A program made the position numbers and the translations under genes. From Paenibacillus alkaliterrae (lineage in GTDB: Bacteria; Bacillota; Bacilli; Paenibacillales; Paenibacillaceae), in the NCBI RefSeq assembly GCF_021532375.1, contig NZ_JAKGAP010000016.1, positions 1 to 64,000 on the forward strand: DNA of 64,000 nt, in the 5' to 3' direction. Position 1 is the stretch's first letter; each line of letters starts with the position of its first letter. This document shows positions 39,004 through 62,782 of the stretch, piece by piece. The notes under the pieces are model-generated. The model was not told where the DNA came from, searched no databases, and was given only the letters and a program-made list of their open reading frames with translations.

Positions 39004-39009
39004 GATCGA

Positions 39010-43644: not shown

Positions 43645-43658
43645 TATGGGCTTGTTTC

Positions 43659-45659: not shown

Positions 45660-45710
45660 AGACATCCTCCTCGAATCATAAGCTTTTGGTGGTTCCCGCC
45701 CCGCCAGTAT

Positions 45711-45754
45711 CGTAAGCGTTTACAAACCGAAGTGAAAGTCTGTAAACGGCTACA
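45711..45754. promoter_or_regulatory. Inverted operator upstream of the transporter operon
   Basis: GTTTACA at 45718-45724 and TGTAAAC at 45741-45747 form a perfect inverted repeat with a 16-base spacer. Each arm is also part of a CcpA-site-like sequence: TGTAAACGCTTACG (minus strand, 45711-45724) and TGTAAACGGCTACA (plus strand, 45741-45754). They lie about 50-100 bases before the binding protein start. Either a dimeric regulator or catabolite control by CcpA would fit. Confidence 0.5.
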
Positions 45755-45859
45755 CCTCTCGATCGGAACGAACAAGGGTTACGCTTTCATCATACAAAAG
45801 GAATGTCATGGCGTATTTACAAAAACAGTAGATAGATTTGCATTTATTCTAGATTTTGA

Positions 45860-46735: not shown

Positions 46736-46876
46736 GAATGTATCTCCTCCTACACTTCGCAAAAATATGGAATAAGTGTAAATCTCACTGTTGTTTTTCT
46801 AAATACGCCATAACGTTCCTTTGCTATATTTAAAGCGTAACCAAAAATATATTCGTTCGATGGAGAGGTGCAACCG

Positions 46877-47719
46877 ATGTTATCTGAAGCCCAATTGGAA
46901 GAGTTCGAAAGAAACGGTTTTATTAAAGGCGATGTCATCCTCAGTGACGAGGAAGTAGAGACGCTTCGCCTGGAGCTTGACAACGTTATGGAGGGAAAAT
47001 CGGTCAAGAAGCCGGTCCTCAGTCACAACATGCTGGAAGGTTCGCTGTACGATAATATGAAAATGACCGTAAACGAGAGGGTCGTCCAGATCGTTAACAT
47101 CTGGATGGCAAGCGACGCCTTCTTCAATCATGCTGCGAATCAACGAATATGCGAAGAAATCGCACAAATGAGCAAAACGGATACCGTCCGCATTTGGCAT
47201 GATCAGGTACAGTACAAACCGCCGGTTTCCGGAGGACCGACCGGATGGCATCAGGACCACCCGCTGTGGCCGATCATTCAGCCCGCAGATCTGGTCAGTG
47301 CCTGGGTGGCGCTAGACGATGCGGTCATCGAGAACGGATGCATGTGGATGGTTCCAGGCAGCCACAAGTGGGGGAACCACCAGAAATACCTGGCCAGTAC
47401 AAAAGATTTTATGCCCTATCATAGAGAGCCGGAGTTACTGCCTGAAGATGCCGTAGTGAATGCCGTTCCATTCGAGATCAAGAAGGGACAAGTAGGTTAT
47501 CATCACTGTCTTACCTGGCACGGCAGTCCCCATAACCGTTCGGAATTAAAACGGAGGGCGATCGCGGTTCATTATATGCCGGGCCATACCCGTTACGAAC
47601 CTTCTACTAACCATCCGATGCATGATTACGTGACCGTGAAACCCGGAGAGATTCTCAGCGGCGATCATTTCCCCGTTGTTTATACGAAAACGGCCACACC
47701 AGCATCCGAGACCGTATGA
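46877..47719 (+). CDS. Phytanoyl-CoA dioxygenase (PhyH) family protein
   Basis: A 280-residue Fe(II)/2-oxoglutarate oxygenase. The iron-binding HxD is in GPTGWHQDHPLWPI (residues about 134-142), and the distal His in GQVGYHHCLTWHGSPHNRSELKRRAIAVHYM, with the following Arg positioned for 2-oxoglutarate. VSAWVALDDAVIENGCMWMVPGSH is the usual core. The ATG at 46877 follows GGAGAGGTGCAACCG. It is the only plus-strand gene between 35 and 64 kb. It is transcribed away from an AraC gene and converges on the 13-gene minus-strand run. Confidence 0.9.
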   Translation: MLSEAQLEEFERNGFIKGDVILSDEEVETLRLELDNVMEGKSVKKPVLSHNMLEGSLYDNMKMTVNERVVQIVNIWMASDAFFNHAANQRICEEIAQMSKTDTVRIWHDQVQYKPPVSGGPTGWHQDHPLWPIIQPADLVSAWVALDDAVIENGCMWMVPGSHKWGNHQKYLASTKDFMPYHREPELLPEDAVVNAVPFEIKKGQVGYHHCLTWHGSPHNRSELKRRAIAVHYMPGHTRYEPSTNHPMHDYVTVKPGEILSGDHFPVVYTKTATPASETV

Positions 47720-47783
47720 ATCGAATCCTTATCAGAGATTTGACATCCATGAAAGGTGTAGAGGATTACCCGATTTGCCTCAA

Positions 47784-47810
47784 AAGGCTGCCAGACAGGC
47801 AGCCTTTTTC
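47784..47810 (+). terminator. Terminator after PhyH
   Basis: A perfect 9-bp stem (AAGGCTGCC / GGCAGCCTT) with a 5-nt loop and TTTC after it, 64 bases beyond the PhyH stop and before the end of the convergent ASRT gene. A tract preceding the stem may let it work on the minus strand too. Confidence 0.8.
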
Positions 47811-47832: not shown

Positions 47833-48204
47833 TCATCTTATCGGATATGCCATCACCGACATCAGCGCGTTCTCCGCCTGGGCCGCATCAAGCCTGCTGT
47901 ACTGCACGACGACCGGAATATCGCTTGTCACTTCGATCGCATAGGGAACACCAACAGGAATTGGCTCACCATTCTTAAGCAGGGAGCTCGTTCGAATATG
48001 ATTCGTTCGCCTTGGCGGAACGACCACCAGAATATCCTCCATCGGATCGCGGTCCTCGAAATAAATCGTCAACCGCACAGACGCTTCTTCGGAAGAACAG
48101 TTCAGAACGCATACCGACTCATGGCTGACCAGTGTCCCCGAGCTTATTTCCGGTATGTACCCATCCGGAATAAACCAATGATTTTCTCCTCTTGCCTCGT
48201 ACAT
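47833..48204 (-). CDS. ASRT-family protein (sensory rhodopsin transducer), copy 2
   Basis: A 123-residue protein of the same family as the gene at 36204 and differing in a few residues (YEARGENHWFIPDGYIPEIS, VVVQYSRLDAAQAENALMSV). No rhodopsin gene is present, so a role as a ligand-binding or regulatory protein of the sugar locus is more plausible than phototransduction. The ATG at 48204 follows GAAAGGGTGTCGCAC; it begins 25 bases after the sulfatase-like gene ends. It is the last gene of the 13-gene run and so the likely parent of copy 1. Confidence 0.85.
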   Translation of the reverse strand: MYEARGENHWFIPDGYIPEISSGTLVSHESVCVLNCSSEEASVRLTIYFEDRDPMEDILVVVPPRRTNHIRTSSLLKNGEPIPVGVPYAIEVTSDIPVVVQYSRLDAAQAENALMSVMAYPIR

Positions 48205-48229
48205 GTGCGACACCCTTTCATTCATGGAA

Positions 48230-49663
48230 TCAATGCTGCCGGTACGTGTTTAGCGTTTGCACAGCCATGTCGAAACGTTCGCGCTGCGGCTCCCGGCACC
48301 AATCCTCCCAAGTCATGCCTGCGGAAGCCAGAATTTGCTCGATTCGCCTCCGGAACGGCAGACCGGCCTCCTTAAGCTGGCGGTTCATCGGATCTTCCCG
48401 TCCGTTCAGCTTGCGTTCAACCCATCCGTCCAACTGGCGCTCAAACCGGTCGACCAATTCCGGCTGCAAATCAGCCAGGTTGACCGTTTCGGCAGGATCG
48501 GCAGCCAAATCGTACAACTCCCTTGGCGGACGATTGAACGGTCCCGAATCGTAGGTGCGGATAAATTTGTAGTCCGCGGTTCGTATCCCTCTCGCCGCCT
48601 GCCATGCGCATTCACTAAGGTATACTGTCCCGTGCGTTCCATCCGTCTCGCCTTGAATGGCCGGCCACAGGCTTTTTCCGTCAAGTCCGTCAGGATCGCC
48701 AAGCCTCGACCGGTCGATTCCGGACGGAGACTCGTTTCGGACGGCTTCCAAAATCGTCGGCAGCAGGTCGACCTGCTGAACAAGTCCGGAAACCCGGCGC
48801 CCCGCCGGGATCCGTCCGGGCCATCGCATAATCAGGGGAACATGAACGGTAGGTTCGTACAATCCGCAGTGATCCCAATAAATGTCGTGCTCGGTAAGAC
48901 TTTCACCATGGTCGCCGAACAGAATGAGGAGCGTATCGTCCTGAATCCCGAGCTTCTTCAAATGATCGTCCAGGTCCTGCAGCCTGTCGTCCAAATAGCG
49001 GATTTCCGCATCATAGAGAGAATCGAAATAACCGCTGTCGGTAACCGGTCCTACCAGATCATAATGATGATGCTTAAAGAAAGGATAGGCCGGGTGATTG
49101 TATGCCCGCTCCATGCTTTTGTTCGCCGGGTCATAAGGGTCCCGGTCGGTTTCGTAGAAATCAGGGATGTAAGATTGCGGCGGCAGATAGGGCGTGTGGG
49201 CATCCCAATAATGCAGGAACAGAAAGAACGACTCGTCTTTATGCTGCTCGATCCAGGGCATCGCCAAGTCGTTGACGGTACGTCCGTCAATCCAGCGGTT
49301 GCCGCCGACACTGTTCATATAATAACGGTAACCTCTGGCAAACCATTCTTTTAACTGGTACAAATTGTCCACCGCCGAAGTTGTGAACCCCGCGGAGCGC
49401 AGCATGGTCGGCAGCCATGCGGTTGATTTCGGCAAATGCGTCAGCTCCGAACCATGCGATACGATGCCTGTCGTGAGGCCGATTTTTCCGGAAAATATCC
49501 CGGTGTGGGCCACTTCGGTAGGAATATCCGCCGCGTATGCCCGTTCGAACAATACGCCTTGTCCGGCTATACGGTCCAAATGCGGACTCGTCGGTTTTTT
49601 ATAGCCGTATCCGCTTAGCCGGGAGGCGCGAAGCGTGTCCAGTGAAATCAGAATGATTTTCAT
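48230..49663 (-). CDS. Sulfatase-like AlkP-superfamily hydrolase without formylglycine Cys
   Basis: A 477-residue metalloenzyme with the sulfatase fold. Metal-ligand motifs are IILISLDTLRASRLSGYG at the N terminus and LILFGDHGESLTEHD with DHCGLYEPTVHVPLIMRWPG. The usual C-x-P-S-R site is absent: the equivalent text is DIPTEVAHTGIFSG, with a Thr aligned to the catalytic Cys. A formylglycine sulfatase is therefore unlikely; a Thr-nucleophile phosphodiesterase, phosphomonoesterase or transferase is possible. It has no signal peptide. It lies 16 bases downstream of the APS-kinase-like gene and shares its 3' end sequence with a fragment upstream of ASRT copy 1. Confidence 0.82.
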   Translation of the reverse strand: MKIILISLDTLRASRLSGYGYKKPTSPHLDRIAGQGVLFERAYAADIPTEVAHTGIFSGKIGLTTGIVSHGSELTHLPKSTAWLPTMLRSAGFTTSAVDNLYQLKEWFARGYRYYMNSVGGNRWIDGRTVNDLAMPWIEQHKDESFFLFLHYWDAHTPYLPPQSYIPDFYETDRDPYDPANKSMERAYNHPAYPFFKHHHYDLVGPVTDSGYFDSLYDAEIRYLDDRLQDLDDHLKKLGIQDDTLLILFGDHGESLTEHDIYWDHCGLYEPTVHVPLIMRWPGRIPAGRRVSGLVQQVDLLPTILEAVRNESPSGIDRSRLGDPDGLDGKSLWPAIQGETDGTHGTVYLSECAWQAARGIRTADYKFIRTYDSGPFNRPPRELYDLAADPAETVNLADLQPELVDRFERQLDGWVERKLNGREDPMNRQLKEAGLPFRRRIEQILASAGMTWEDWCREPQRERFDMAVQTLNTYRQH

Positions 49664-49679
49664 GTTGTTTCGTATCCTC

Positions 49680-50228
49680 CTAAGGAACCGCCTTCATTAA
49701 TAATGCCTTGTTGTTGTCCAGCCAGGACAGAATGGCCTCGCAATTATCCTGTACCGAAAATGATGACGTACAAATCGTAATATCGGGATGTACCGGCTCC
49801 TCGAACGGATCGGATACGCCTGTAAAATGCTTCAATTCGCCCCGCCGCGCCTTGGCGTATAGTCCCTTGACGTCACGCCGCTCGCATTCACCCAGCGAAC
49901 ATTTCACATAGATCTCAACAAAACCCGGGATTTCGCTGCGGGCGATTTCCCTCATTTCATGATAAGGCGTTATGGCCGATACCAGCACATCCACACCGTT
50001 CCGTGCCAGCAGCTTGGATACGTAGGCGATTCGTTTCATATTCTCGAACCGCTCCTCCTTGCTGAAACCAAGTCCTTTGCAAATCGTTTCACGAAGCTCG
50101 TCGCCATCCAGCAGCTCGACGCGGCGTCCCTGCTCCCGCAGTTTCGATGCGACAAATCGTGCGGTCGTCGTTTTTCCGGCGCCGGATAAACCTATAAACC
50201 ATAGTACCGATCCGTGTTGTGTGTCCAT
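49680..50228 (-). CDS. cysC: Adenylylsulfate (APS) kinase-like protein
   Basis: A 182-residue P-loop kinase. Walker A GLSGAGKT at residues 13-20, LLDGDELRETI, GFSKEERFENMKRIAYV, the SAITPYHEMR loop, KGLYAKARRGELKHFTGVSDPFEEP: all positions expected of CysC, which phosphorylates APS to PAPS. No sulfurylase (CysDN or Sat), sulfotransferase or sulfate reductase is in the window. So either PAPS is made for a transferase elsewhere, or the enzyme phosphorylates another molecule of this locus, such as a sugar. It is flanked by a Gfo/Idh gene 18 bases upstream and a sulfatase-like gene downstream. Confidence 0.85.
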   Translation of the reverse strand: MDTQHGSVLWFIGLSGAGKTTTARFVASKLREQGRRVELLDGDELRETICKGLGFSKEERFENMKRIAYVSKLLARNGVDVLVSAITPYHEMREIARSEIPGFVEIYVKCSLGECERRDVKGLYAKARRGELKHFTGVSDPFEEPVHPDITICTSSFSVQDNCEAILSWLDNNKALLMKAVP

Positions 50229-50246
50229 GTTCGGTAACCTCCTTCG

Positions 50247-51251
50247 TTATAAGGCGGCCGGCACTTCCACAGGAGTCCCGCCGGACTGATGTGAACGGAT
50301 GGCGGCTTCGATGACTTCCTGCGCGGCGAGCGCGTCGGCACCCGATGCCTCGATCTCCTCCGGTGCCGCACCCGCCTTGATTTGTGCGATGAAACGGTTG
50401 ATCCGCTGCGCAAACGTGTCATCGAAGCCCTGCATCCCGCCGAACATCGGATTTCGGAGAACCGTGAGCTCATTGGAATGGTGGGGGTAATAGGTCATAC
50501 TCTCGTATACGTTATCGATGACGAGCCGCCCTTCATGACCGGCCACCTCGCAATACTCGATCGGGTGACGCATCGACATATCGTAACTGCCCGTCAAATG
50601 TCCGACAGCTCCGGAAGCGAACTCCATATTGACGGATACGGTCGACCACGACCCCCGGCCCGGCGCCTTCGTCATGAAAGACTGCACCCGCTTCACATCC
50701 CCCGCGAAATATCGCATGACATCAATCGAATGGGGATGAAGGGCCCGCATGTGCAGCCATTCGGTATCCTCCTTCGGGTTTTGAATCGTCAGCCGCATAT
50801 TGAGGAATAAAAGGGAGCCGAGTTTCCCCTGCTCCACAAATTCCTTTGCCTTGTAAGCCGCCGGCGTAAAACGGTGATTCAAATTGCAGGCAAGTCGGAC
50901 ACCTTTCTCCCTCGCAAAACCGATCATGCGGCGGGCTTCTTCAATCCGGTTCGAAATCGGCTTCTCCACGAGCACGTCCTTGCCCGCTTCGATCGCGGTC
51001 ATGGACGGTTCGTAGTGGTGGCTGCCTTTCTCCACGCCCGCCGTCGCCACGACGATGACATCGACCGGCACCGTGTCCAGCAGTTCCCGAAGATCGGTAT
51101 AGAACGGCACACCATGCTCGCGCCCTGCCGCTTCGGCCCGCTCGGCCATCAGATCGCACACGGCCGCAAGCTCCGTATCCGGATGCTGCCGGTAAGCGCG
51201 GCAATGAATTTTTCCGATATTGTTAACGCCGACAACCGCGACTTTGATCAT
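50247..51251 (-). CDS. Gfo/Idh/MocA-family oxidoreductase
   Basis: A 334-residue NAD(P)-dependent sugar or cyclitol dehydrogenase. The Rossmann motif VAVVGVNNIGKIHC opens the protein; DVLVEKPISNRIEEAR at about residue 92 holds the catalytic Lys (EKP); CNLNHRFTPAAYKAKE and LHPHSIDVMRYFAGD complete the usual sites. It is followed 18 bases later by cysC. Gap 51252-51444 upstream contains a small stem-loop (CGCTTC / GAAGCG at 51403-51418) and no gene. Confidence 0.88.
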   Translation of the reverse strand: MIKVAVVGVNNIGKIHCRAYRQHPDTELAAVCDLMAERAEAAGREHGVPFYTDLRELLDTVPVDVIVVATAGVEKGSHHYEPSMTAIEAGKDVLVEKPISNRIEEARRMIGFAREKGVRLACNLNHRFTPAAYKAKEFVEQGKLGSLLFLNMRLTIQNPKEDTEWLHMRALHPHSIDVMRYFAGDVKRVQSFMTKAPGRGSWSTVSVNMEFASGAVGHLTGSYDMSMRHPIEYCEVAGHEGRLVIDNVYESMTYYPHHSNELTVLRNPMFGGMQGFDDTFAQRINRFIAQIKAGAAPEEIEASGADALAAQEVIEAAIRSHQSGGTPVEVPAAL

Positions 51252-51444
51252 TTTAGGACCCTTCCTTTCTTCCCGCCACCCTGCATTCCTCTATCAAATT
51301 TAGGCGAGAGGACTCCCACTTCTACAAAGTGGTGAGGTGAATCGGATCTTCCTGAATTCGCAAAAAAGATCTTTGCTTTTAGGTTGATACACCAGAAACC
51401 CCCGCTTCATCCGAAGCGTCAGTGTAGGTAAGTGGCGGGAGTGT

Positions 51445-52860
51445 TCATTCTGTCACCTTTACCTCTTCTTTTTCCTTTTCCTTATCTTTAGCCTGAAGGG
51501 AGCGCGCGTTCACGATCGAACCGATGTGCAGCGAATCATACGCCTCTTGGGAAGACGTGAACGTCTTGTCTTTCCCATGCCAGTTCAGGTTGGTATAGAT
51601 CGGATTTTCACGATTGACTTGCTGCTCGCGTTTGGTGATATGGTCTTCCATCCGCTTTCTGAGCAAAGCGACAACTTTCGGCTCTTTATCCGCCACATTG
51701 ACGTTTTCTTCCGGGTCCTGGATCAGGTTATACAGCTCCACTTCCGGCTTGAAGTGAAAATCCGGCTCGAGTGCGCAAATCAGCTTCCATTCCGGCGTTC
51801 GCCATCCATGTTTGCGCATCCAGGTGCATTCGGTAATGTAAAACTCGTTTACCCGGTTTGTTTCTTCACCGGCGATCATTCGCGTCAGGCTTCGTCCGTC
51901 AAATGCCGCTTCGCTTTCGATCTCGAGCAGCTCAAGCACCGTCGGCATGATATCCGAAATAAGCGAAACGTCGGACACCCGTTTTCCGGCGGGCACACTG
52001 CCCGGAAACTTAATGATGAGCGGAACAACCAGTGTACAGTCGTACAAACCGTGATGATCAAAATAGCATTCGTGTTCGTACAGCGTCTCGCCGTGGTCGG
52101 ACGTAATAACGACCAGCGTATCTTCTTCCAGTCCTAGCGCGTTCACCTTGGCGAACAGGCTCTGGATGCAGGCATCCATATAGGCGATCGCGCCGTCGTA
52201 CTGCGCCGTCACGTATTCGTGATCCGTGACGCCCGCTGGGATCCATGATTTCAGAAAATCCGCAAAAGGTTTAAATGCATAGACCGGTTCCATAGAGGCA
52301 TTTGCCGGATCTTTCTCGTCATCTCCGTAAAAGATCCGTTCGTACGGCTCCGGCGGCAAATACGGCGAGTGCGGATCCATATGTCTCAAAAAAAGAAAGA
52401 AAGGTTTATCCTCGGCTGCAAGACGTTCCAGCTCCGGCACGGCCACCTCGTTCAAATTCTGCGCCTTCGGCGTACGTCCGTTTTCATCAGGGAGCCAGGA
52501 TTCAAAGTCCAGATAGGTCTGAAACCCGCGTGAGGAAGGATTCCCCGTAAATCCGATACAAGTTGTATTGTAGCCGTTCTCGCCCAGCACCTCCGCCATC
52601 GTTTGCAGATGACCGCCAAGCGGTCCTTGATGCCTGAGCGCCACCACATCGGTACCGAATGCATCCATCCCGGTCAGCATCGACGCATAGGCCGGCGTCG
52701 TCGGAATACTGGGACTGAAATGATTCTCGAACAAGACGCCTTCGCCTGCAACCTTATCCAAATGGGGCGTGGTCAAACGGGAATATCCATAGGAGCTCAT
52801 ATGATCGCGGCGCAAGCTGTCAATTCCAAAAATGATGACATTCTTCTTTTTGTTTGCCAT
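51445..52860 (-). CDS. Sulfatase-like AlkP-superfamily hydrolase, Thr-type site
   Basis: A 471-residue enzyme with the sulfatase fold. Metal sites are NVIIFGIDSLRRDHMSSYG and LVVITSDHGETLYEHE, with FDHHGLYDCTLVVPLIIKFPG. At the position of the formylglycine Cys the sequence is SPSIPTTPAYASMLTG, with Thr and no Arg at +4. It is therefore not a canonical sulfatase. Thr-based members of this superfamily include phosphotransferases and phosphoesterases. A charged Lys/Glu tail ends the protein. No signal peptide. It is related in layout to the gene at 48230 and lies 13 bases after the isomerase gene. Confidence 0.83.
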   Translation of the reverse strand: MANKKKNVIIFGIDSLRRDHMSSYGYSRLTTPHLDKVAGEGVLFENHFSPSIPTTPAYASMLTGMDAFGTDVVALRHQGPLGGHLQTMAEVLGENGYNTTCIGFTGNPSSRGFQTYLDFESWLPDENGRTPKAQNLNEVAVPELERLAAEDKPFFLFLRHMDPHSPYLPPEPYERIFYGDDEKDPANASMEPVYAFKPFADFLKSWIPAGVTDHEYVTAQYDGAIAYMDACIQSLFAKVNALGLEEDTLVVITSDHGETLYEHECYFDHHGLYDCTLVVPLIIKFPGSVPAGKRVSDVSLISDIMPTVLELLEIESEAAFDGRSLTRMIAGEETNRVNEFYITECTWMRKHGWRTPEWKLICALEPDFHFKPEVELYNLIQDPEENVNVADKEPKVVALLRKRMEDHITKREQQVNRENPIYTNLNWHGKDKTFTSSQEAYDSLHIGSIVNARSLQAKDKEKEKEEVKVTE

Positions 52861-52873
52861 ATTCTTTGCCCTC

Positions 52874-53677
52874 CTAACGAGCGTTCAATTTTTTCAGACA
52901 AGCGTTCAAGTATCCATAGGATTCGGCGGCCACGATCGACACTTGCGCAAGCGAGTGACCGGGTCCAGCGCCGATGACTTCCACCACGACAGGACCGTCG
53001 TATCCGCCGTCGACCATCGCTTTGCAATAGCCGAACAGATCGATATCGCCTCTGCCGCATGCCTGCAGTTCAATCGGTCCGGGGCCCTGCTCCCTGCCTT
53101 TGCAATCGCGGATATGAATGTGTTTCACCCGGCTGAGTACGGCCGGGAGCGCTTCCTCCGCATTTTCGCCGGCCCTGTGGATATGGCTGGGATCCATGTC
53201 GATCCCGAATGCTTGTGACGTTATTTCCTGCATGGCTGTAAGCGTCGTGGGGATATTATAGATGGCGTTGCCCACATGCGCTTTCACGCACAAGGTGACC
53301 CCATACGAAGCAGCCCTCTCCGTCATTCGGGCCAATGCCTCAATAGACGCCCGCAGGTCTTCCTCGACGCCCAGCTTGCCGCCGGGTCCGACATTGACGA
53401 TCGGGATTCCGATCTCCGCGGCGGCCTCGAACGCCGGAAGCAATCGTTCCTCCTTCAAGGAAGCGACTTCCGTCGATAGAAACGCAAGTCCATTCTCCTG
53501 TACGATGGCTTGCAGCTCGTTCTTTTGCTCCTTCCAGCGGCTTAAATCCAAATGCTCGCACATTCCCTCTATGGCGGCGATTTCAACGCCGTCGTATCCG
53601 CACAGCGCGATTTGCTTCGCAGCGGCGGCAAAATCGAATTGTTTAAAAAGCACAGAGTTTATACCTAACTTTATCAT
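52874..53677 (-). CDS. Sugar phosphate isomerase/epimerase (TIM barrel)
   Basis: A 267-residue xylose-isomerase-like TIM barrel of the AP_endonuc_2/IolE type. Metal-binding acidic and His residues are seen in the barrel ends: GYDGVEIAAIE at about residue 30, LCVKAHVGNAIY near 155, GIDMDPSHIHRAG near 180, HIHIRDCKG near 205, and GYDGPVVVEVIGAG near 240. It would interconvert or dehydrate a keto/aldose or inosose intermediate made by the Gfo/Idh enzymes around it. Confidence 0.87.
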   Translation of the reverse strand: MIKLGINSVLFKQFDFAAAAKQIALCGYDGVEIAAIEGMCEHLDLSRWKEQKNELQAIVQENGLAFLSTEVASLKEERLLPAFEAAAEIGIPIVNVGPGGKLGVEEDLRASIEALARMTERAASYGVTLCVKAHVGNAIYNIPTTLTAMQEITSQAFGIDMDPSHIHRAGENAEEALPAVLSRVKHIHIRDCKGREQGPGPIELQACGRGDIDLFGYCKAMVDGGYDGPVVVEVIGAGPGHSLAQVSIVAAESYGYLNACLKKLNAR

Positions 53678-53725
53678 GTATGGTTAACCTCCCAGGAACT
53701 TTGATATTCCGTACATAGGCAGCGG

Positions 53726-54850
53726 TCATTTCATGAACAGCGGATCCCCGTGCAGCGGCGGCAGCGGATGCGGTCTGACAACTTCTCCGCCGCGTTCGTA
53801 CGATTCCTGGACCGCATGCACGTATTCCAATACGGCAAGCGCATCCCTGCCGCTTGCGCGCAGTTGATCCTGAGATACCTTATTGGAGACATCCTCCAGG
53901 AAGGCATGAAGCCTGTTGTTGAAGGTCCGGCTAAAATCGTTCGTTCCGAAATCGGTGACTTCCGGCTCCGGCTGGACACTGATCGCCGGAATCCCTTTTT
54001 CCGCCTTCCAGAACGAGACTTTCTCCACGCAGTTTTCGATGCAGAACGTGCCGCGGGAGCCTGCCACCTCAAGGCTCCACCAGCCGCCGAGGCCATATAC
54101 CGCATCTCCTCTTTGACTGAGCAGGTAACCGACGCCTCCATTGGCGAATTTCACATGAATGCTGTTGATCGATACCATCACATCCCCTGCGCTCCGGCGA
54201 AAGCCGGGACGGTCGGAGAAGGTCTGGATGTGCGTAATATCTCCGCAGAAATGACGCATGACGCTGAACGGATGGGTCAGGAACGCTCTCATGTGAAAAT
54301 ACGGATGTCCCTTGATCTTCGGGGAACCGGCAAGCCCATAATTCAGTTCGCCTCCGTTAAAGCCCATCTTCGCAAGACAATACACCAGCTCGCCGATGTC
54401 GCCGCTTTCCATATACTGCTTCGCCTTCTCCGCCGGCGGCGTAAAATAGTGATTCAGGTTGCACCCCAGATAAACCTTCTGTTTCTCAGCGAAAGCTACG
54501 AGCTCTCTGCCCTCCCGGACATCGTTGCACAGCGGTTTTTCCACCAGCACGTGCTTGCCGTAGCTCAATGCCTCCATTGCCGGTTCAAAGTGCCAGCTTC
54601 CGTTGTCGATCCCCCCTGTCGTCACGTCGACGACCTGCAGGTCCGGCTCGCTCTCGATCATATCCTTGAGGCTGTAATACGCTTTCACGCGGTGCTTTTC
54701 CGCGGCGGCATCCGCACGCTCCTTGATGACGTCGCATACCGCCACCACATCGGCGAGCTCATCTTCCTTATAGCAGGCCGCATGGTTATTCCCGATCCCG
54801 TTCATGCCGACAATTCCGATTTTTACCGCCATTTGCGCGTTCCCGGCCAT
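53726..54850 (-). CDS. Gfo/Idh/MocA-family oxidoreductase
   Basis: A 374-residue NAD(P)-dependent dehydrogenase: Rossmann KIGIVGMNGIGNNHAACY, catalytic KHVLVEKPLCNDVREGRE, GCNLNHYFTPPAEKAKQYM and MRAFLTHPFSVMRHFCGDI. It is similar in arrangement to the gene at 50247 and probably arose from the same ancestor. Start uncertain: an internal ATG 18 bases further in (MAVKIGIVG) is as good, and neither has a strong binding site. It lies 48 bases before the isomerase gene. Confidence 0.87.
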   Translation of the reverse strand: MAGNAQMAVKIGIVGMNGIGNNHAACYKEDELADVVAVCDVIKERADAAAEKHRVKAYYSLKDMIESEPDLQVVDVTTGGIDNGSWHFEPAMEALSYGKHVLVEKPLCNDVREGRELVAFAEKQKVYLGCNLNHYFTPPAEKAKQYMESGDIGELVYCLAKMGFNGGELNYGLAGSPKIKGHPYFHMRAFLTHPFSVMRHFCGDITHIQTFSDRPGFRRSAGDVMVSINSIHVKFANGGVGYLLSQRGDAVYGLGGWWSLEVAGSRGTFCIENCVEKVSFWKAEKGIPAISVQPEPEVTDFGTNDFSRTFNNRLHAFLEDVSNKVSQDQLRASGRDALAVLEYVHAVQESYERGGEVVRPHPLPPLHGDPLFMK

Positions 54851-54910
54851 GCTTGTAGGTTCAGACCGGAAACTTCACCTACCTTTCGTCCCATTAAGTT
54901 TGATTTGTGC

Positions 54911-55975
54911 TCACACTTCTGCGATGGCAGGATCGTCCAGCCGGACTCGCCTTCCTTCGCGTGTCGATACGTAGCTGGCCAAAACCATGCGCAGTGAAGT
55001 TCGCCCTTCCTCCGCCGTCGCGATTGGGCCCCGTTCGCCCTTCATAAATTCGGCCAGCGGTTTTGCCAACCCGCGAATTCGAAATCCTTGATTCGCTGGG
55101 CTTTCGATATCGCTTGCCGTCCAGAAGCCCGCCTGAGCGTCAAACCGCTTAAGCCCTGCCGAACCGTCCGGGCGCGGCACATTACAGCTGGGCACATCCC
55201 CGTAGTTTTGAACGATCGTTCCGCGTTCGCATATAATCTCCATCGTGTTCTCCGCCGCCGTGCATGTAAAGGAGCAGTTCACTTCGGCGACCGGGCCTCC
55301 CGTGTACCTGTAAATTACAATTCCATTATTCATTGGGATTTTAGGGTTATAAAGCGATTCTATTTCTGCGGTTACCGTCTCCGGAACGCCGAGCAGAAAG
55401 TGGAGAAAATCGACCGGATGCGACGAATCGTCCGCCCAGATGTCACGGTTGTGAACCGGATTGACATGCCACGACTCGGCAAACTCGGCATTCAGTCCCA
55501 TTGGAAGCCCATGCCTGCGCCGGACCATGAAGACCTGCCCGAGCTCACCGCTCTCCAGCCACTCTTTCATTTGAATATTTTGCGGATCGACCCTCATTTG
55601 CCAGGCAATCGTGAATGGAATCCCGTGCTTATGTACGGCTTCCACGATCCGATCTGCTTCAGCTAAGGTGAGCGCCATCGGCTTTTGCAGCACTACCGCT
55701 TTCCCTTGAGCGGCCGCCTGTTCCACCAGATCGGCGTGCATGGATGTCTCCGACGCCACCACAACAGCCTGAATGTCGTCACGGGCCAACAGTTCTTCGG
55801 TGCTCGCACACACGTCCAGTCCGAACGCGCTGCTCGCAGCTTCCAGCCTTTGGGCATCATGATCCCAGCCGGCAAGCACTTTAACGCCGTGATCCGTTTT
55901 TTTCCATTCCTCGCAGTAAGCATTGACATGTCCATGAGCAAATCCCAGAATCCCTACACCAATCGGTTTATTCAT
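54911..55975 (-). CDS. Gfo/Idh/MocA-family oxidoreductase (QKP variant)
   Basis: A 354-residue protein with N-terminal GVGILGFAHGHVNAYCEEW and a KPM motif: AVVLQKPMALTLAEADRIV. The Glu of the usual EKP is Gln but the catalytic Lys is kept. The His of DDSSHPVDFLHFLLG would be the substrate-side His. The different motifs set it apart from the other two oxidoreductases in the locus, so it likely acts on a different intermediate. It is the first catabolic gene after the transporter genes, preceded by a 14-base palindrome. Confidence 0.87.
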   Translation of the reverse strand: MNKPIGVGILGFAHGHVNAYCEEWKKTDHGVKVLAGWDHDAQRLEAASSAFGLDVCASTEELLARDDIQAVVVASETSMHADLVEQAAAQGKAVVLQKPMALTLAEADRIVEAVHKHGIPFTIAWQMRVDPQNIQMKEWLESGELGQVFMVRRRHGLPMGLNAEFAESWHVNPVHNRDIWADDSSHPVDFLHFLLGVPETVTAEIESLYNPKIPMNNGIVIYRYTGGPVAEVNCSFTCTAAENTMEIICERGTIVQNYGDVPSCNVPRPDGSAGLKRFDAQAGFWTASDIESPANQGFRIRGLAKPLAEFMKGERGPIATAEEGRTSLRMVLASYVSTREGRRVRLDDPAIAEV

Positions 55976-56011
55976 CGATCCCCTCCGCCTGCATGTTGAT
56001 CATACCGTTAT

Positions 56012-56025
56012 AGGAAACGTTTCCT
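56012..56025. promoter_or_regulatory. Palindromic operator-like site
   Basis: AGGAAACGTTTCCT is a perfect 14-base palindrome with the central CG of LacI-family operators. It stands 37 bases upstream of the Gfo/Idh start at 55975, inside the intergenic 55976-56120. A LacI-type regulator encoded elsewhere, or CcpA, could bind it. Inferred from sequence only. Confidence 0.45.
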
Positions 56026-56120
56026 GATTTCATCATAATCAACATGCCGGCCGGTTTCATGGTTGATAGGGACAATAACCGTTTCGATCGGGACCAATTC
56101 GACCCCTGGCAGCAATTCGT

Positions 56121-57026
56121 CTATCCCTTAACCGCCCCGGCCGTCATGCCCGCTACGATTTTTTTGTTAAAAAAAATAAACAGGATCAGCGGCGGAATCG
56201 AAATCAGCACAATATCGGCAAAGAGCAGATTCCAGGACGTCGTAAACCGGCTCATAAAATTGTATAAGGTAAGCTGAACCGTCGCATTGTCCGCGCCTGG
56301 AAAGAAATAGAGCGGATTGACGAAATCGTTGAACACGGCGATCGACGTCAAGACTACGATGGTCGAAGTAACGGGCCTCAGCAGCGGGAAAATAATATTG
56401 AAAAACAATCGCGTACCCCCGCAGCCGTCAATCATTGCGCTCTCGTCGATTTCGCGCGGCAGCGTAGCCACGAACGCTTTGTAAAGGATGGCCGCAAAGG
56501 GAAAGTGGAGCGCAACTTCAACGAGCGTAATGCCCGTCATTGTTTTGAACAATCCGATTGAATCGAGCACCCAAATGGTCGGTACAATGGCAGGCGGGAT
56601 CATCAGCCCCGCAAGGATAAGGAAATTGATCGTCGAGGACGCTTTGCCGCCTTCCCTGCGCTGCAGGACGAAACCGGACATCGCGCTGACGACAACGAGT
56701 ATGGCGATCGACAATACGGTAAGAAGCGTGCTGTTGTAGAAAGCGCGGATCAGCATGTTTTCCGAAGCCGTGAGTACGGCTTTGTAATTGGCGATGATAT
56801 GAAAGGAGCTCGGCCAGGCCATGCTCATTTCCGCGGATTCCGCTTGATTCTTGAAGGAATTGATAATGACAAAATAAAACGGCACCCAAAAAATCAAAGT
56901 GCTGAGCACGAGGGAAACAGCTCCGATGACAAACTGTCTCGCCCGTTTGCTAATCCCTTCGCTCCAATCTTGGCTTATCTCTTTTCTTATGCCGCTGCTC
57001 AAGCCTTCAATCATGCCCTTGCTCAT
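56121..57026 (-). CDS. Sugar ABC transporter permease (MalG/CUT1 type)
   Basis: A 301-residue permease with six transmembrane segments. The EAA loop is EIDESAMIDGCGGTRLFFNIIFPLLRPVTSTIVV and the end KKIVAGMTAGAVKG is typical. It overlaps the partner permease by 4 bases. It has no ATPase gene nearby, so an MsmX-type shared ATPase is expected. Confidence 0.9.
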   Translation of the reverse strand: MSKGMIEGLSSGIRKEISQDWSEGISKRARQFVIGAVSLVLSTLIFWVPFYFVIINSFKNQAESAEMSMAWPSSFHIIANYKAVLTASENMLIRAFYNSTLLTVLSIAILVVVSAMSGFVLQRREGGKASSTINFLILAGLMIPPAIVPTIWVLDSIGLFKTMTGITLVEVALHFPFAAILYKAFVATLPREIDESAMIDGCGGTRLFFNIIFPLLRPVTSTIVVLTSIAVFNDFVNPLYFFPGADNATVQLTLYNFMSRFTTSWNLLFADIVLISIPPLILFIFFNKKIVAGMTAGAVKG

Positions 57027-57889
57027 AAGTGCACCTCGCTTCTTGTCAGGAACTTATACAGCGGAAAAGCGAGCAGTGATACACAAATGAACAAAATAAC
57101 GTTGCCCGCCGTCGCGAGACCGTAGAAGCCGGCCTGGTACTGCTTGTATATGATCGAAGCAATCAGGTCGGTTGTGAACCCCGGTCCCCCCTTAGTCATC
57201 GCCCAAATGAGGTCGAAGGAACGCAACCCGCCGATGAATGCCAGGATGATAACCGAGTTCATGGCCGGCCGGCTTAAAGGCACCGTTATATGCCAGAAGG
57301 CATCCCTGGAGCTGCCGCCGTCGATCTTAAGCGCTTCATAATACTCTTGAGGAATGGCCGTAATTCCGGCAATGTAGATCACCGTCGCAATGCCGACACC
57401 TTTCCATACGTCGACGAAAGCAACCGACAATAGAGCTATTTTCGTGTTGCCCAGCCAGTCCGGACCGGCAATGCCGAGTGCGGCGAGGCTCGTGTTGATC
57501 ATCCCCTGCGAAGGATGCATCATCATGGAGAAGGCGATCCCCACTGCGATCGTACTAAGGAGGGTCGGAAAGAAAATGACGGATCTAAGATAGCTTTTAA
57601 ACATGATCCCGGACGTGAGGAACGCTCCGAGCAGCAGACCGAGCACTACCTTCAGCACACAGGTTACGACGGCGTAAACGATCGTGTTCCGGAAGCCGAT
57701 GCTGAGCGCCGTCTCCGAGAAAAAGGTGACATAATTATCAAAACCGATAAAATCCCAATCCATAAGCGTCCATCTTGTCATACTGAAGAAGAACGACAGG
57801 ATCGTCGGCAGCAGGTAAAAGACGAAATAAATGATACCGGCAGGCAGCAGAAAGGCGTATGAGTATGTCCTCATCGTTATTTTGGTCAT
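57023..57889 (-). CDS. Sugar ABC transporter permease (MalF/CUT1 type)
   Basis: A 288-residue permease with six transmembrane segments, first at YAFLLPAGIIYFVFYLLPTIL. The EAA loop is EYYEALKIDGGSSRDAFWHITVPLSRPAMNSV. It follows the binding protein gene by 15 bases. Confidence 0.9.
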   Translation of the reverse strand: MTKITMRTYSYAFLLPAGIIYFVFYLLPTILSFFFSMTRWTLMDWDFIGFDNYVTFFSETALSIGFRNTIVYAVVTCVLKVVLGLLLGAFLTSGIMFKSYLRSVIFFPTLLSTIAVGIAFSMMMHPSQGMINTSLAALGIAGPDWLGNTKIALLSVAFVDVWKGVGIATVIYIAGITAIPQEYYEALKIDGGSSRDAFWHITVPLSRPAMNSVIILAFIGGLRSFDLIWAMTKGGPGFTTDLIASIIYKQYQAGFYGLATAGNVILFICVSLLAFPLYKFLTRSEVHL

Positions 57890-57904
57890 AGGTTCACTCC
57901 TCTT

Positions 57905-59281
57905 TTACCAACCGGGAAGATTCAATTGCTGCGCCTGCTTCTCTACGTCTTTGTCATAATCTTCGGCGCCTTTCTTGGCGCCGCTGATACCGCTGCCGAC
58001 CGCAACCGTAATATTTTCCAGGTTAGGTCCCTTAACAGGCGACACGAACTCAAGGGCCGGTGCCGTTTTCCCTTCATCAAAATAACTCTGCATTTCCTTG
58101 ACGCCCTGATATGTATCTTCCGGCAGCGCTACATCTTTGATCACGTAAGGTCCGACAGCTTTCAACGTGCCCGACAGGACAGCTTGACCTTCAGGCGATA
58201 CGAAGTACTCCACCCACTTCTTCGCCGCGTCTGCCTTCTTCCCGTTCTTATTGATGTAAAGTCCGCTCGGCATCCATACCGTAAGGCCGTTGGTGTCGGC
58301 GCTGTCGCTTGGCTGCGCGAATACGCCGATGTCGTTCATTTTGTCCGGATAATTCTGGTTAATGGCGTCTAGAGCCGACGAAAGCATCGGATAATGCACA
58401 CCGGTTCCTTCCGCGAGCATTTTCAAGCCTGCGTCGTAGGTGGTAGCGAGGAAATCTTTGTTCATGTATCCCGCCTTAAACACTTCCTCGATTTTTTCAA
58501 AACCGCGAAGTGCGGCAGGCGTAGCGGCGTACTTCGCTTTGTTGCCGGTATAATCCTCTGCAAAATTCGGAACCTGTTGCTGAACGTTATAGTAATCCGC
58601 CAGAACGAACAGCTGCGAGGTCCAAGTATCCTTATACGTTCCGATGACCGCGGTTTTACCCGCAGCTTTGATCTTTTCATTGTTGGCCATGAACTCTTTC
58701 CATGTCTGGGGTACCGTTAAGCCGAGATCAGCATAAATCTTTTTGTTGTAAAGGATGGCGCCGGCATTGGTTGAACCGACGGGTACGCCGAATACCTTCC
58801 CGCCCGATGTGACCGTCTCTTTAAATGAATCAAGGATATTGGCCATATAAGACTCGTTTGTAAGGTCCAGGAAGTTTTCTTCCGGATTGAGAGCCTGCAG
58901 GAGCGATCCCGAGTTGTAAACCAGCAGATCGGCCATATCGTCAGTGGCGAGACGCGTCTTGACCAGGTTATCGCCTTCCGTACCGTCCGGTTTGATATCC
59001 CATTCGATAGCGATATTCAGCTTCTTCTCTGCTTCGGCCGCTACAACTTTAAGAGCTTCAAGCGTAGTCCCCGTGTTGCCGACCATCAGGGTGATCGTTG
59101 TCTTTTCGGCAGAAGTGTCTGAGTTGGAATTTCCGGAAGTTTGTTCGCCGCCCGCTTCAGCCGTATTGTTCATGGCTGCCGGTTGATTGTTTCCTCCGCT
59201 GCCTCCACAGCCCGCAATCACCGCAAAGACTAGAAGGACACAGGTAACGAATGCAATCGTTTTGCTTTTCGTCTTACTCAT
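57905..59281 (-). CDS. Sugar ABC transporter substrate-binding lipoprotein
   Basis: A 458-residue family 1 solute-binding protein. Signal MSKTKSKTIAFVTCVLLVFAVIAGCGG with the lipobox IAGC at about residue 25, then a low-complexity Asn/Ser/Gly linker and the binding domain (VFGVPVGSTNAGAILYNKKIYADLG, AKKWVEYFVSPEGQAVLSG). A GGAGG site is present 8-12 bases before the ATG. It lies 152 bases downstream of the response regulator, which probably activates it. Ligand unknown. Confidence 0.92.
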   Translation of the reverse strand: MSKTKSKTIAFVTCVLLVFAVIAGCGGSGGNNQPAAMNNTAEAGGEQTSGNSNSDTSAEKTTITLMVGNTGTTLEALKVVAAEAEKKLNIAIEWDIKPDGTEGDNLVKTRLATDDMADLLVYNSGSLLQALNPEENFLDLTNESYMANILDSFKETVTSGGKVFGVPVGSTNAGAILYNKKIYADLGLTVPQTWKEFMANNEKIKAAGKTAVIGTYKDTWTSQLFVLADYYNVQQQVPNFAEDYTGNKAKYAATPAALRGFEKIEEVFKAGYMNKDFLATTYDAGLKMLAEGTGVHYPMLSSALDAINQNYPDKMNDIGVFAQPSDSADTNGLTVWMPSGLYINKNGKKADAAKKWVEYFVSPEGQAVLSGTLKAVGPYVIKDVALPEDTYQGVKEMQSYFDEGKTAPALEFVSPVKGPNLENITVAVGSGISGAKKGAEDYDKDVEKQAQQLNLPGW

Positions 59282-59433
59282 TCCGCAACATCCTCCTTTT
59301 AAACTCTGTTATACGTTCGCGGTGAACCTAACAGAATCTTTAGATATAGTCTATCGTTATTAAATTCTATTGAATACCTGCGTTCTTGTCTTTTTAAGGG
59401 GGGTGATTTTTCTTTTTTGCATGCTTTGATGCC

Positions 59434-60960
59434 TTACCTTGATTGGTTGGCGTTCATTCGTTTTGCATAAGCATTTGGCGGTTCGCCTACGATTTTTTTA
59501 AACAATAGGCTGAAATGCTTCGGATCCTCATAACCTACGAGCCCGCATACGTCGGAGAGACGCTCCACCCCTCCCTCCAGCAGTTCCTTTGCCTTTCCCA
59601 CGCGATACCGGATGACATAATCGGAAAAGGTGGACCCGGTTTGCGTCTTGAACAATCTCGACAAATAACCCAAGCTGACATGATTGTCACCCGCGAACTG
59701 CTGCAAGGAAAGATCGTGCTGATAATTGGCGTGGATCCAATTCAGTAAGATGGGAACAAGGCCCTTTGGCTTCAAATCCTTCGGTCCGGACTCACAGAAC
59801 AAGCTGAAGGCTTTGCCTACCAGCCAATCCGATAATTCCGAATAGCCGGAGATTTCATTCAGCAATTTGATATCCTCTTGTAATTTGTTGATATTGATTT
59901 CCGTCTTGGACGAGGATTGAAGATTATACTTCAGGGAATAAAACAGATCGTTCACGAACAACATCAATTGCCTAACGGTAATTTCCTTCTTTTGCAGCTC
60001 CAGCAAGAGCTTATCGACCGTTTCTTTTCCTTTCAGAATATCTCCTTTTTTCAGAAGGGTTTGCAGCACCCGGACCTTGTCCCACACCCCGCTTACATCG
60101 GCATCTTCCGCCTTTGTCTCGGGGCCAATAAACGTAGAAACACCCAATTTCCGATGTTCTTCAATCTGTTTATTTAAGAAAATAAAGCATTTATTCGCGT
60201 TTTCCTTCTCTTTTTTGAGAACATAACTGATATGCACGCAGATATGGCGTTCATTCAGATAACGAAATAAAGACGTTAAGCCGGTTTTTATGCCGGGACA
60301 GCGGGAATCTTCATCCGCCGGAACGAGGATCGCCTTTCTCTGTGAATCGATACTGATACAGTGAATCTCATGCTCTTCGACACATCCGCTCAGGAAATGT
60401 TGTTTGATTTCGCGGTCGGTGATACCGGTCTCTCTCCAGCTTTTTGAAGCAGCCCAGTTTTCCAGCAGGAGCAGCGCCATGCCGTATTTACGCCGGAAAA
60501 TGGAAGCCGCTATTTCGTTATCCTGCATAGCAGCAGCGAACAGCATCTGCGCGACGGACCAATTGATTCTTTCTTCTAATTGTTTCGAATCGTTCTCTAT
60601 ATTTTGAATGGCCTTATCCACCGTTTTGTATAAGACGTCCTTTTTGACAGGCTTCAATAAGTAATCGATAACGCCGATTTTCATCCCTTTCTGGGCATAT
60701 GCAAATTGATCGTGAACACTTAAGATGATGCTTTTTATCGTTGAATCTGTCCGGTTCAGTTCGCTGATTAATTCCAAACCGTCGATCCCGGGCATATTGA
60801 TATCGGTCAATACCAGCTGGGGCACTGTTAGGTTTGCGGCGGATAAGGCGTCTTCCCCATTCTCAAATGCGAAAATCTTATGCGACGGTTCGTAAACTTT
60901 AAACAGCTCTATAAGTTCGGCCAGGGCCCACCGTTCATCTTCCACTAAAAATATGTTCAT
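59434..60960 (-). CDS. AraC-type response regulator (YesN-like)
   Basis: A 508-residue response regulator. Receiver residues: Glu/Asp pair at 7-9 (VEDE), phospho-Asp53 in LVLTDINMPGIDG, Lys103 in YLLKPVKKDV. The C-terminal 100 residues give the AraC HTH pair HDLSLQQFAGDNHVSLGYLSRLFKTQTGSTF and RLSDVCGLVGYEDPKHFSLLFKKIVGEPPNAY. It overlaps the kinase by 26 bases. It should be the activator of the downstream transporter and catabolic run. Confidence 0.92.
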   Translation of the reverse strand: MNIFLVEDERWALAELIELFKVYEPSHKIFAFENGEDALSAANLTVPQLVLTDINMPGIDGLELISELNRTDSTIKSIILSVHDQFAYAQKGMKIGVIDYLLKPVKKDVLYKTVDKAIQNIENDSKQLEERINWSVAQMLFAAAMQDNEIAASIFRRKYGMALLLLENWAASKSWRETGITDREIKQHFLSGCVEEHEIHCISIDSQRKAILVPADEDSRCPGIKTGLTSLFRYLNERHICVHISYVLKKEKENANKCFIFLNKQIEEHRKLGVSTFIGPETKAEDADVSGVWDKVRVLQTLLKKGDILKGKETVDKLLLELQKKEITVRQLMLFVNDLFYSLKYNLQSSSKTEININKLQEDIKLLNEISGYSELSDWLVGKAFSLFCESGPKDLKPKGLVPILLNWIHANYQHDLSLQQFAGDNHVSLGYLSRLFKTQTGSTFSDYVIRYRVGKAKELLEGGVERLSDVCGLVGYEDPKHFSLLFKKIVGEPPNAYAKRMNANQSR

Positions 60961-62782
60961 GCACAGCAGCCTCCTTTTCCTCTTGTTCGTACGTCTGATA
61001 TGGAAACTCCAATTTAACAGTTGTCCCCCTGCCGGGGCTGCTTACGATTGTTAGATCGGATTTCTCACCGTAAAAGAGTCGGATTCGCTGCCCAATGTTT
61101 TGGAGACCGATTCCGTGCATATCGTCGCGGAGCTCGTTAATCCGGAAGGGTGAATGAAGCGATCTCTGCAGCTCCAGCAATTTCTCTTCATCCATTCCTT
61201 TTCCGTTATCGGTTACTTCAATTACGAGGTTGTCCCCGTTTCTGCGCGCGCTTAACGTAATACAGCCCCCTGTCTTCATCTTCCCAAGTCCGTGATTGAT
61301 TGCATTTTCAATGAGGGGCTGGATGGTGAGCTTCAGTACGGATGCCTTCCGCAGCGCCTCGGGTATATCGCAGCTAAGCTCAAAGCGGTCGCTGAAACGA
61401 TGCTGCTGAATGTTCATATAATTGCCGATATGGTTCAGTTCTTCCCGGAGCGGCACGGGATGCTGCAAATTGTTCATACTGTATTGAAACAATTCCGCCA
61501 GCGATTCCGACATTTCGGCTACCTCTTCGATTCCTCTGATCCGGCTGATCGATTTCATAATGTTTAAGGTATTGTACAAAAAATGCGGATTGATTTGAGC
61601 CTGAAGCGCGGATAATTGGGCATTCTTCTCCGCCAGCTTGGACTCGTACACTTCACTGATCAAGCGGGAAATGCTGTCAAGCATATTGTTGTATATCCGG
61701 CTTAACCGGCTGATTTCGTTATTGCCCTTGAACTCCATGCGCTGATTAAGATCGCCCTGCTCCACCCGGTTCATCTTCTTCATCATATAGCGCAGCTGGA
61801 GTGTAATATGATGGGACAGAATATAGGAGACGACGGCGATTAACAGCATGGCCAGAAGGCCGACGAGAATCAGAATATATTGCGACTTTTTTTGCTTGGA
61901 CAAAAGAAAATCGTTCGGAATCAGGATCATCGTGTTCCATTTGGTATAGTCCGATTTTTCATAGGTGTAGAGGTACTGCTTGCCGTTCCAGATCATATCT
62001 CCCGAGCGGCTTTCACCCGCAAAGATCGAAGTATCCAAGTCTATGTTCGTTCGGCCGGTCAGCTCGTTCTTATTGTCGTAAACGATATTTCCTTCTTCCG
62101 TTACTATAAATACACGCATATTTCTCTCTACTTCATTGCTGTCGGAATGAACCAGCATATTATCGATCACTTTGACATTGATATTGATCTTCATGTAGGC
62201 GATGATTTCCCGGTAAGGTATGCGGTTGATGTTGCGGACAAAAGAGATGACTTTCTCTTGACGGCCCCCGCCTGTATCTTCTTCGGTAACGGGCAGCAAG
62301 AAAAATTTGTTCCGCATCACGCTCTCATTGTTGTTATACCAGAACTCGTCCAGCAAGCTGAAGCTTACCTTCGGACCGTTCGCTTTTGATACATAATAGA
62401 CGACATTATCGAGTGCGAATAGATATATGCTTTGCAATTGAGGCCTCGGCTGCAAGTGCGTGAACAGCCGCTTGTTAATCGTCAATTCGATTTCGTTTTG
62501 TTCGACGTCATTCTTGGATTGGTAATGGTCCAGCAAACTTCTTTGGAGGACGGGATCGCCGAAAATGGATACGGATAATTTCTCAATATCCTGAATGTAC
62601 AGCTCAACCGTCCGGCTGAATTGCCTGGTTATGGTGTCCGATAGGGAAACCGTCTGATTTTTGATATCGCTTACATTTTTGTAATAAAAAATAAGGCACG
62701 TCAAAATGACGATAAATAGGGAAACGACCGAGAAGGTAACAAACATCTTGGTCTTTAGCATGTAATCGTTCCATTTTTTCAT
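60935..62782 (-). CDS. YesM-type sensor histidine kinase
   Basis: A 615-residue membrane kinase: transmembrane 1 at about residues 11-33, extracellular Cache-like domain to about 300, transmembrane 2 at about 302-322, HAMP, then His400 in QAQINPHFLYNTLNIM. ATPase motifs are ENAINHGLGK, DNGKGMDEEK and MHGIGLQNIGQRIRL. It is the first gene of the 13-gene run and shares a 26-base overlap with its response regulator. The sensed signal is probably the imported sugar or its binding protein. Confidence 0.92.
   Translation of the reverse strand: MKKWNDYMLKTKMFVTFSVVSLFIVILTCLIFYYKNVSDIKNQTVSLSDTITRQFSRTVELYIQDIEKLSVSIFGDPVLQRSLLDHYQSKNDVEQNEIELTINKRLFTHLQPRPQLQSIYLFALDNVVYYVSKANGPKVSFSLLDEFWYNNNESVMRNKFFLLPVTEEDTGGGRQEKVISFVRNINRIPYREIIAYMKININVKVIDNMLVHSDSNEVERNMRVFIVTEEGNIVYDNKNELTGRTNIDLDTSIFAGESRSGDMIWNGKQYLYTYEKSDYTKWNTMILIPNDFLLSKQKKSQYILILVGLLAMLLIAVVSYILSHHITLQLRYMMKKMNRVEQGDLNQRMEFKGNNEISRLSRIYNNMLDSISRLISEVYESKLAEKNAQLSALQAQINPHFLYNTLNIMKSISRIRGIEEVAEMSESLAELFQYSMNNLQHPVPLREELNHIGNYMNIQQHRFSDRFELSCDIPEALRKASVLKLTIQPLIENAINHGLGKMKTGGCITLSARRNGDNLVIEVTDNGKGMDEEKLLELQRSLHSPFRINELRDDMHGIGLQNIGQRIRLFYGEKSDLTIVSSPGRGTTVKLEFPYQTYEQEEKEAAVHEHIFSGR

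Follow-up and report, generated by a model that had tools for sequence, protein, structure and literature searches.

We analyzed 64,000 nucleotides of Paenibacillus alkaliterrae DNA (contig NZ_JAKGAP010000016.1, positions 1 to 64,000; hereafter the window), focusing on a minus-strand run of 13 genes that combines sugar import and sugar-converting enzymes with a homologue of adenylylsulfate (APS) kinase, CysC, and two sulfatase-family proteins, A1 and A2. From 62782 down to 47833 the open reading frames (ORFs) encode a sensor histidine kinase (HK), a response regulator (RR), a solute-binding protein (SBP), two permeases (P1 and P2), the Gfo/Idh/MocA oxidoreductases G1 and G2, a triosephosphate isomerase-type barrel enzyme (TIM), A1, a third oxidoreductase (G3), CysC, A2 and a small ASRT-family protein (Table 1). 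We tentatively favor a reading, possible though not quite probable in our judgment, in which these genes would encode a pathway that breaks down, in the cytosol, a phosphoryl-bearing carbohydrate or cyclitol taken up by the cell, with CysC dedicated to the locus and paired with A2.

Table 1. Features of the 13-gene run and its downstream edge, in the direction of transcription.
Feature	Coordinates	Strand	Basis
YesM-like sensor histidine kinase (HK)	60935..62782	-	Pfam Cache, HAMP, His_kinase, HATPase_c
YesN-like response regulator (RR) with AraC-type helix-turn-helix	59434..60960	-	Pfam Response_reg/AraC
Sugar-type solute-binding protein (SBP)	57905..59281	-	Pfam SBP_bac_1; below every NCBIfam cut-off
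ATP-binding cassette (ABC) permease 1 (P1)	57023..57889	-	Pfam BPD_transp_1
ABC permease 2 (P2)	56121..57026	-	Pfam BPD_transp_1
Gfo/Idh/MocA oxidoreductase G1	54911..55975	-	Pfam GFO_IDH_MocA
Gfo/Idh/MocA oxidoreductase G2	53726..54850	-	Pfam GFO_IDH_MocA
Xylose-isomerase-like TIM-barrel enzyme (TIM)	52874..53677	-	Pfam AP_endonuc_2
A1, sulfatase-family enzyme with Thr54/Tyr58/His269 in place of catalytic Cys/Arg/Lys	51445..52860	-	Pfam Sulfatase; alignment
Gfo/Idh/MocA oxidoreductase G3	50247..51251	-	Pfam GFO_IDH_MocA
CysC, APS-kinase homologue, sole apsK match of the genome	49680..50228	-	Pfam APS_kinase, 187 bits
A2, sulfatase-family enzyme with Thr49/His53/His265, neighbor of CysC	48230..49663	-	Pfam Sulfatase; alignment; model
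ASRT-family small protein with SHExxCxxN ligand signature	47833..48225	-	Pfam ASRT (PF07100), 166 bits
Hairpin followed by TTTT just past ASRT, possible transcript end	47782..47809	-	By eye; consensus scan did not list it

The 13 genes are co-directional. An earlier note on this DNA had described the same run, from a YesM kinase to an ASRT gene; all of its ORFs are present, and Pfam agrees with the family given to each. The short gaps or overlaps that it reported hold for nine of the 12 junctions, which measure at most 60 bp and include two overlaps, and fail for the other three, which span 145-193 bp. In order, the junctions are an HK/RR overlap of 26 bp, gaps of 152 bp (RR-SBP) and 15 bp (SBP-P1), a P1/P2 overlap of 4 bp, and gaps of 145 (P2-G1), 60 (G1-G2), 48 (G2-TIM), 13 (TIM-A1), 193 (A1-G3), 18 (G3-CysC), 16 (CysC-A2) and 4 bp (A2-ASRT). 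The SBP_bac_1 protein and two BPD_transp_1 permeases are the composition of a CUT1 import operon, and there was no ATPase gene within the run. Scans for promoters (20 hits, versus 15.6 in shuffles) and terminators (13 versus 17.6) gave counts close to shuffle level.

Conservation was assessed in two sets of relatives. We searched for A2 in 392 genomes of the order; 133 had matches at E ≤ 1e-20, and 55, including the source genome, reached 57% identity or more, three of these only through fragments or a broken gene. From 53 other genomes we took 54 A2 neighborhoods (two from genome G228), leaving out G220, which has an A2 fragment, and including G206 and G226, whose A2 matches are broken. Contig ends cut some of these neighborhoods (L046, for example, at 4.3 kb), and genes in them were counted by tblastn with the window proteins at fixed identity and score limits. 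The second set, the named loci, comprises the best 80 of 209 relatives detected by scanning the GTDB collection with an A2 alignment, and includes loci from Paenibacillus, Cohnella, Bacillus, Neobacillus, Ectobacillus, Metabacillus, Alicyclobacillus, Salibacterium, Evansella and Lederbergia. In a sample of the phylum, A2 was matched at E ≤ 1e-90 in two of 398 genomes, one of which was the source genome. Several A2 matches may be damaged: that of Neobacillus niacini (L120:10001-11422) has an internal stop and may be a broken gene, and those of G037 and G160 have one stop each.

The 54 neighborhoods contained CysC in 53 cases, A1 and TIM in 49 each, G3 in 48 and G2 in 31; SBP (19), HK (15), a PhyH-family protein (12) and ASRT (8) were found less often. 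Among the 80 named loci, likewise counted by tblastn, the most frequent partners of A2 were A1 and G3 (74 each), an AraC-type regulator that we call aR3 (71), and CysC and TIM (62 each), followed by A3, a Cys-type sulfatase of related loci (56), G2 (43), SBP (30), ASRT in the form of either window copy (17) and HK (12). CysC, A1, A2, G3 and TIM form a recurrent group in Paenibacillus and bacteria related to it; in Bacillus-like genera the same set occurs without CysC. Because this co-occurrence is conserved across the 54 and the 80 loci, we rejected chance as the origin of the run, and the refuting outcome that the earlier note had named, a lack of conserved co-occurrence in other genomes, did not hold. 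What is conserved amounts to fewer than 13 genes, because the transporter, ASRT and the flanks vary between loci. Thus, the 13-gene pathway unit envisaged by the earlier note is borne out in part: the core is conserved and recurs as a group, but SBP and HK are found in a minority of loci only, and ASRT is peripheral.

The arrangement of CysC and A2 is more telling than these totals. Of the 62 named loci that carry CysC, 59 have it less than 250 bp from A2; of all 80, 59 have it immediately upstream of A2 despite changing outer neighbors: the pair is flanked by G3 and aR3 in 31 loci, G3 and A3 in 15, P2 and G2 in ten, and P2 and aR3 in one, and has A1 upstream in two. In genome G228, an A2-CysC pair (L083:6853-8883) lies within an unrelated cluster that encodes a radical S-adenosylmethionine (rSAM) protein, DegT aminotransferases and an arginase-family protein. 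The counts are not independent events, because the loci share descent; adjacency maintained through changing neighbors, together with the recurrence at L083, is the stronger argument.

Both A1 and A2 contain the Pfam domains Sulfatase (PF00884; 172 bits in A1 and 140 bits in A2) and SGSH_C. The structure model of A2 (predicted local distance difference test score, pLDDT, 88.7) aligned with S1 sulfatases, phosphonate monoester hydrolases and YejM with VIA Z scores of 35.4 to 30 (30.6 for the periplasmic domain of YejM); the model of A1 (pLDDT 63.8) was too poor for use. The formylglycine motif of S1 sulfatases is given as C/S-x-P/A-x-R in the part of the source available to us (PMC12421950). 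The corresponding residues are T-T-P-A-Y in A1 and T-E-V-A-H in A2, and in alignment with A3 the catalytic Cys is replaced by T54 in A1 and T49 in A2, the Arg by Y58 and H53, and the Lys by H269 and H265. The A1 residues are invariant among 22 sequences and those of A2 among 27, the latter alignment made without L120. A3 itself has CxPxR in 56 of 56 sequences and Lys after DHGD in 54. With the catalytic motif lost in the alignment, we rejected A1 and A2 as formylglycine sulfatases.

In the alkaline phosphatase (AlkP) superfamily, the combination of Thr at the nucleophile position with His where sulfatases have Lys is associated with metal-dependent phosphoryl chemistry, and Thr is the nucleophile of YejM and of the phosphoethanolamine transferases EptA and MCR. 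Both A1 and A2 have this combination, and the Thr-type assignment in the earlier note was right for both. Because the catalytic Cys, Arg and Lys have become Thr, Tyr or His, and His, A1 and A2 probably carry out phosphoryl chemistry. This assignment also draws on weak, partial matches to phosphoethanolamine transferase models over the DHGE...DH stretch, with scores far below the curated cut-offs. Unlike YejM and the EptA/MCR enzymes, A1 and A2 have no membrane segment apparent by reading, and no signal peptide was apparent by reading ahead of the first catalytic strand (a predictor was run for neither feature). We therefore place both proteins, provisionally, in the cytosol.

Of the 55 genomes that carry the locus, 43 were searched for CysC and ATP sulfurylase. 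In 13 of the 43, including the source genome, the locus CysC was the sole apsK match; a fourteenth genome, G019, has a single apsK match that lies outside its A2 locus. ATP sulfurylase was found in 42 of the 43, all 13 single-CysC genomes among them. The CysH proteins of the source genome and of all 12 other single-CysC genomes contain CC...CxxC, a mark of APS reductases. In the source genome, sat and cysH adjoin on contig C108 without cysC, so that CysC neither lies beside sat/cysH nor accompanies a CysH of the kind that needs 3'-phosphoadenylylsulfate (PAPS), and there was no match to the sulfotransferase families PF00685 and PF13469 at E ≤ 0.001. On the strength of the sat/cysH pair and the type of CysH, we rejected the idea that sulfate reduction in the source genome requires CysC: with an APS-reductase-type CysH, ATP sulfurylase and no sulfotransferase match, it should not be needed. 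A FastTree phylogeny placed 61 locus CysC sequences in one clade (support 0.97), with the seven assimilatory copies taken from the order outside it. Two loci, L163 and L165, had been excluded from the locus set before this test and the comparison of residues, and the assimilatory set represents seven of eight loci, since L167 gave no ORF under our filter. CysC probably serves the carbohydrate locus. Even if it is a plain APS kinase, the presence of CysC at the locus only, with a CysH that should not need its product, raises the question of what the PAPS is for.

Several observations weigh against a phosphoryl-bearing substrate and a CysC removed from sulfur chemistry. The match of CysC to the apsK model TIGR00455 (198.4 bits) is above the cut-off of 138.7. 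The solved structures nearest to it are annotated as APS kinases (177 and 162 bits); the first, 5cb6 (probable adenylyl-sulfate kinase; 177 bits over 153 residues), shares the motifs SGAGKTT, LGFS, SAI[ST]PY, RDVKGLYAKAR and FTG. CysC retains residues that we take to be APS-binding, and still has the appearance of a functional APS kinase. Several of the positions that separate locus CysC from the assimilatory copies agree with 5cb6, and therefore the split between clades alone cannot establish a new substrate. The locus CysC is not the sole apsK match in 30 of the 43 genomes, four-Cys CysH enzymes can also accept PAPS, and PF13469 (Sulfotransfer_3) has matches in five of the 13 single-CysC genomes, four of them over the cut-off. 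In L163 and L165, the CysC is of the assimilatory type and lies 3-8 kb from A2; L163:10001-15030, from Evansella sp. AB-P1, has A2 followed by an ATP sulfurylase, a CitMHS/Na-sulfate-type transporter and an APS kinase, confirmed with Pfam. This run, which favors a link to sulfur, and the presence of A3 in 56 of the 80 named loci both allow a sulfated substrate.

The main rival to a phosphoryl-bearing substrate follows from these points: CysC would be a true APS kinase, the locus would handle a sulfated sugar, PAPS would feed sulfuryl transfer or sulfur recovery, and A1 and A2 would act on a sulfate or phosphosulfate. The wide occurrence of ATP sulfurylase and the intact sulfatase motif and Lys of A3 are consistent with it, as is a formylglycine-generating enzyme (FGE) in the source genome, in which the anaerobic sulfatase maturase model TIGR03942 had no match. 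Against it stand the loss of the Cys, Arg and Lys from A1 and A2, the source-genome CysH of the APS-reductase type, the lack of PF00685 or PF13469 matches in that genome, and the failure to find an A3 orthologue among 12 of its 15 sulfatase loci. We regard this explanation as doubtful, though serious.

It is also conceivable, though rather improbable, that this is an ordinary sugar-utilization operon in which CysC is a sulfur-gene passenger held by linkage and A1 and A2 are general phosphatases. CUT1 import with YesM/YesN regulation is common in Paenibacillus, and 18 of the 80 named loci lack CysC, a further point against a dedicated CysC. A1 and G3 are retained in 16 of these 18, and aR3 in 17; the core therefore does not need CysC. 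A passenger does not readily account for an adjacency to A2 that has persisted through multiple rearrangements and is found again in an unrelated cluster, or for the single clade of locus CysC.

Among the sugar-converting enzymes, IolG was the best NCBIfam match of all three oxidoreductases (126.8, 84 and 96 bits, with an equivalog cut-off of 355) and IolE the best match of TIM (30.2 bits, cut-off 290). These rankings would suit a myo-inositol-type cyclitol pathway for inositol phosphate headgroups, with analogues of IolG and IolE/IolI. However, all of the scores are far under the equivalog cut-offs, and the other families of the run differ from the content of iol operons; we rejected membership in the iol pathway proper, and consider a pathway of this type very unlikely. 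No NCBIfam equivalog cut-off was reached by G1-G3 or TIM, and therefore we assign them neither to the inositol enzymes nor to the glycoside-3-dehydrogenases. Among sequences of the Protein Data Bank (PDB), TIM had no match at 1e-6, and G3 had one at 1e-18, to an entry titled only 'Dehydrogenase'. A modified sugar or cyclitol as the substrate, as the earlier note proposed, is still what we infer, with all four enzymes under the NCBIfam cut-offs.

Under the reading that we favor, the ABC importer would bring in a carbohydrate or cyclitol bearing phosphoryl groups, probably as an ester or diester. A1 and A2, as metal-dependent phosphohydrolases or phosphotransferases with a Thr nucleophile, would remove or move a phosphoryl group, the Gfo/Idh enzymes would oxidize and TIM would isomerize the sugar, and ASRT would act as a metabolite sensor. 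The roles in import, oxidation and isomerization are inferred from the families. CysC would be the kinase half of a kinase/phosphohydrolase pair with A2, outside sulfur assimilation. A more specific proposal, which we consider somewhat unlikely, is that an enzyme of the APS-kinase fold has moved from sulfate activation to carbohydrate catabolism, where it would phosphorylate an intermediate on a sugar or nucleotide-like hydroxyl and A2, once a sulfatase and now of the Thr-type phosphoryl kind, would act on the same group, the two forming a portable phosphate on/off pair of which L083 would hold an example in a biosynthetic setting.

Cj1415, a CysC homologue (cytidine diphosphoramidate kinase), phosphorylates a nucleotide other than APS, and may serve as a precedent for a changed CysC substrate. 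Its role is in capsule biosynthesis, unlike that proposed here, and none of the 13 genes matched a nucleotidyltransferase or amidotransferase family in Pfam. In the part of the source available to us, Cj1415 is named among the enzymes that make cytidine diphosphate (CDP)-phosphoramidate 3'-phosphate (PMC11800397).

We found no pathway of this gene composition among the titles that our searches of the open-licence literature returned, in agreement with the earlier note, to which the mixture was not familiar as a described pathway. The parts belong to known families; what is new is the combination, the change of active site and the orphan CysC. If our reading is true, the labels adenylylsulfate kinase and sulfatase wrongly assign genes of many Paenibacillus genomes to sulfur metabolism, and the locus is a conserved, undescribed route for a sugar ester. 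It would also provide a natural case in which a sulfatase scaffold has taken up phosphoryl chemistry of the Thr type, and in which many of the same loci encode a Cys-type relative that has not been converted.

The sequence SHESVCVLN of the ASRT protein fits the signature SHExxCxxN. In the part of their paper available to us, De Souza, Iyer and Aravind link this signature to ligand binding, describe ASRT genes alongside genes for sugar isomerases, kinases and ABC proteins, and predict sugar sensing in sugar operons (PMC2739507). A small, solo ASRT protein in a sugar-operon setting is thus expected from that prediction and is not new; APS kinase and AlkP genes are not named in the same part of that text. 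A second ASRT copy in the window (36204-36653) is 91% identical in DNA over 428 bases, and the likeness is limited to the gene and its immediate edge.

This second copy belongs to another block of genes (35376-47719), which encodes PhyH, ASRT, an aR3-like AraC regulator, an NHL-repeat protein, an Opp-type ABC system and an AraC/PhyH pair. Several genes of this block have matches in P. alginolyticus (L154) within the locus that carries A1-G3-CysC-A2. An inverted repeat (45747-45857 and 46762-46876; 116 columns, 76% identical) has one copy upstream of the Opp-type binding protein and one in the AraC/PhyH intergenic region, and could be a shared operator. Catabolite-responsive element (cre)-like sites with at most one mismatch gave 11 matches in the window (six places, most on both strands), compared to 3.7 expected in shuffles; two places are upstream of the Opp-type binding protein (45711-45754), and the sole exact match is within the kinase gene (62662-62675). 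On the plus strand, 28145-29656 encodes a Cys-type sulfatase (CTPTR), and a relative about 70% identical to it lies in a row of three sulfatase-family genes on contig C136 of the source genome.

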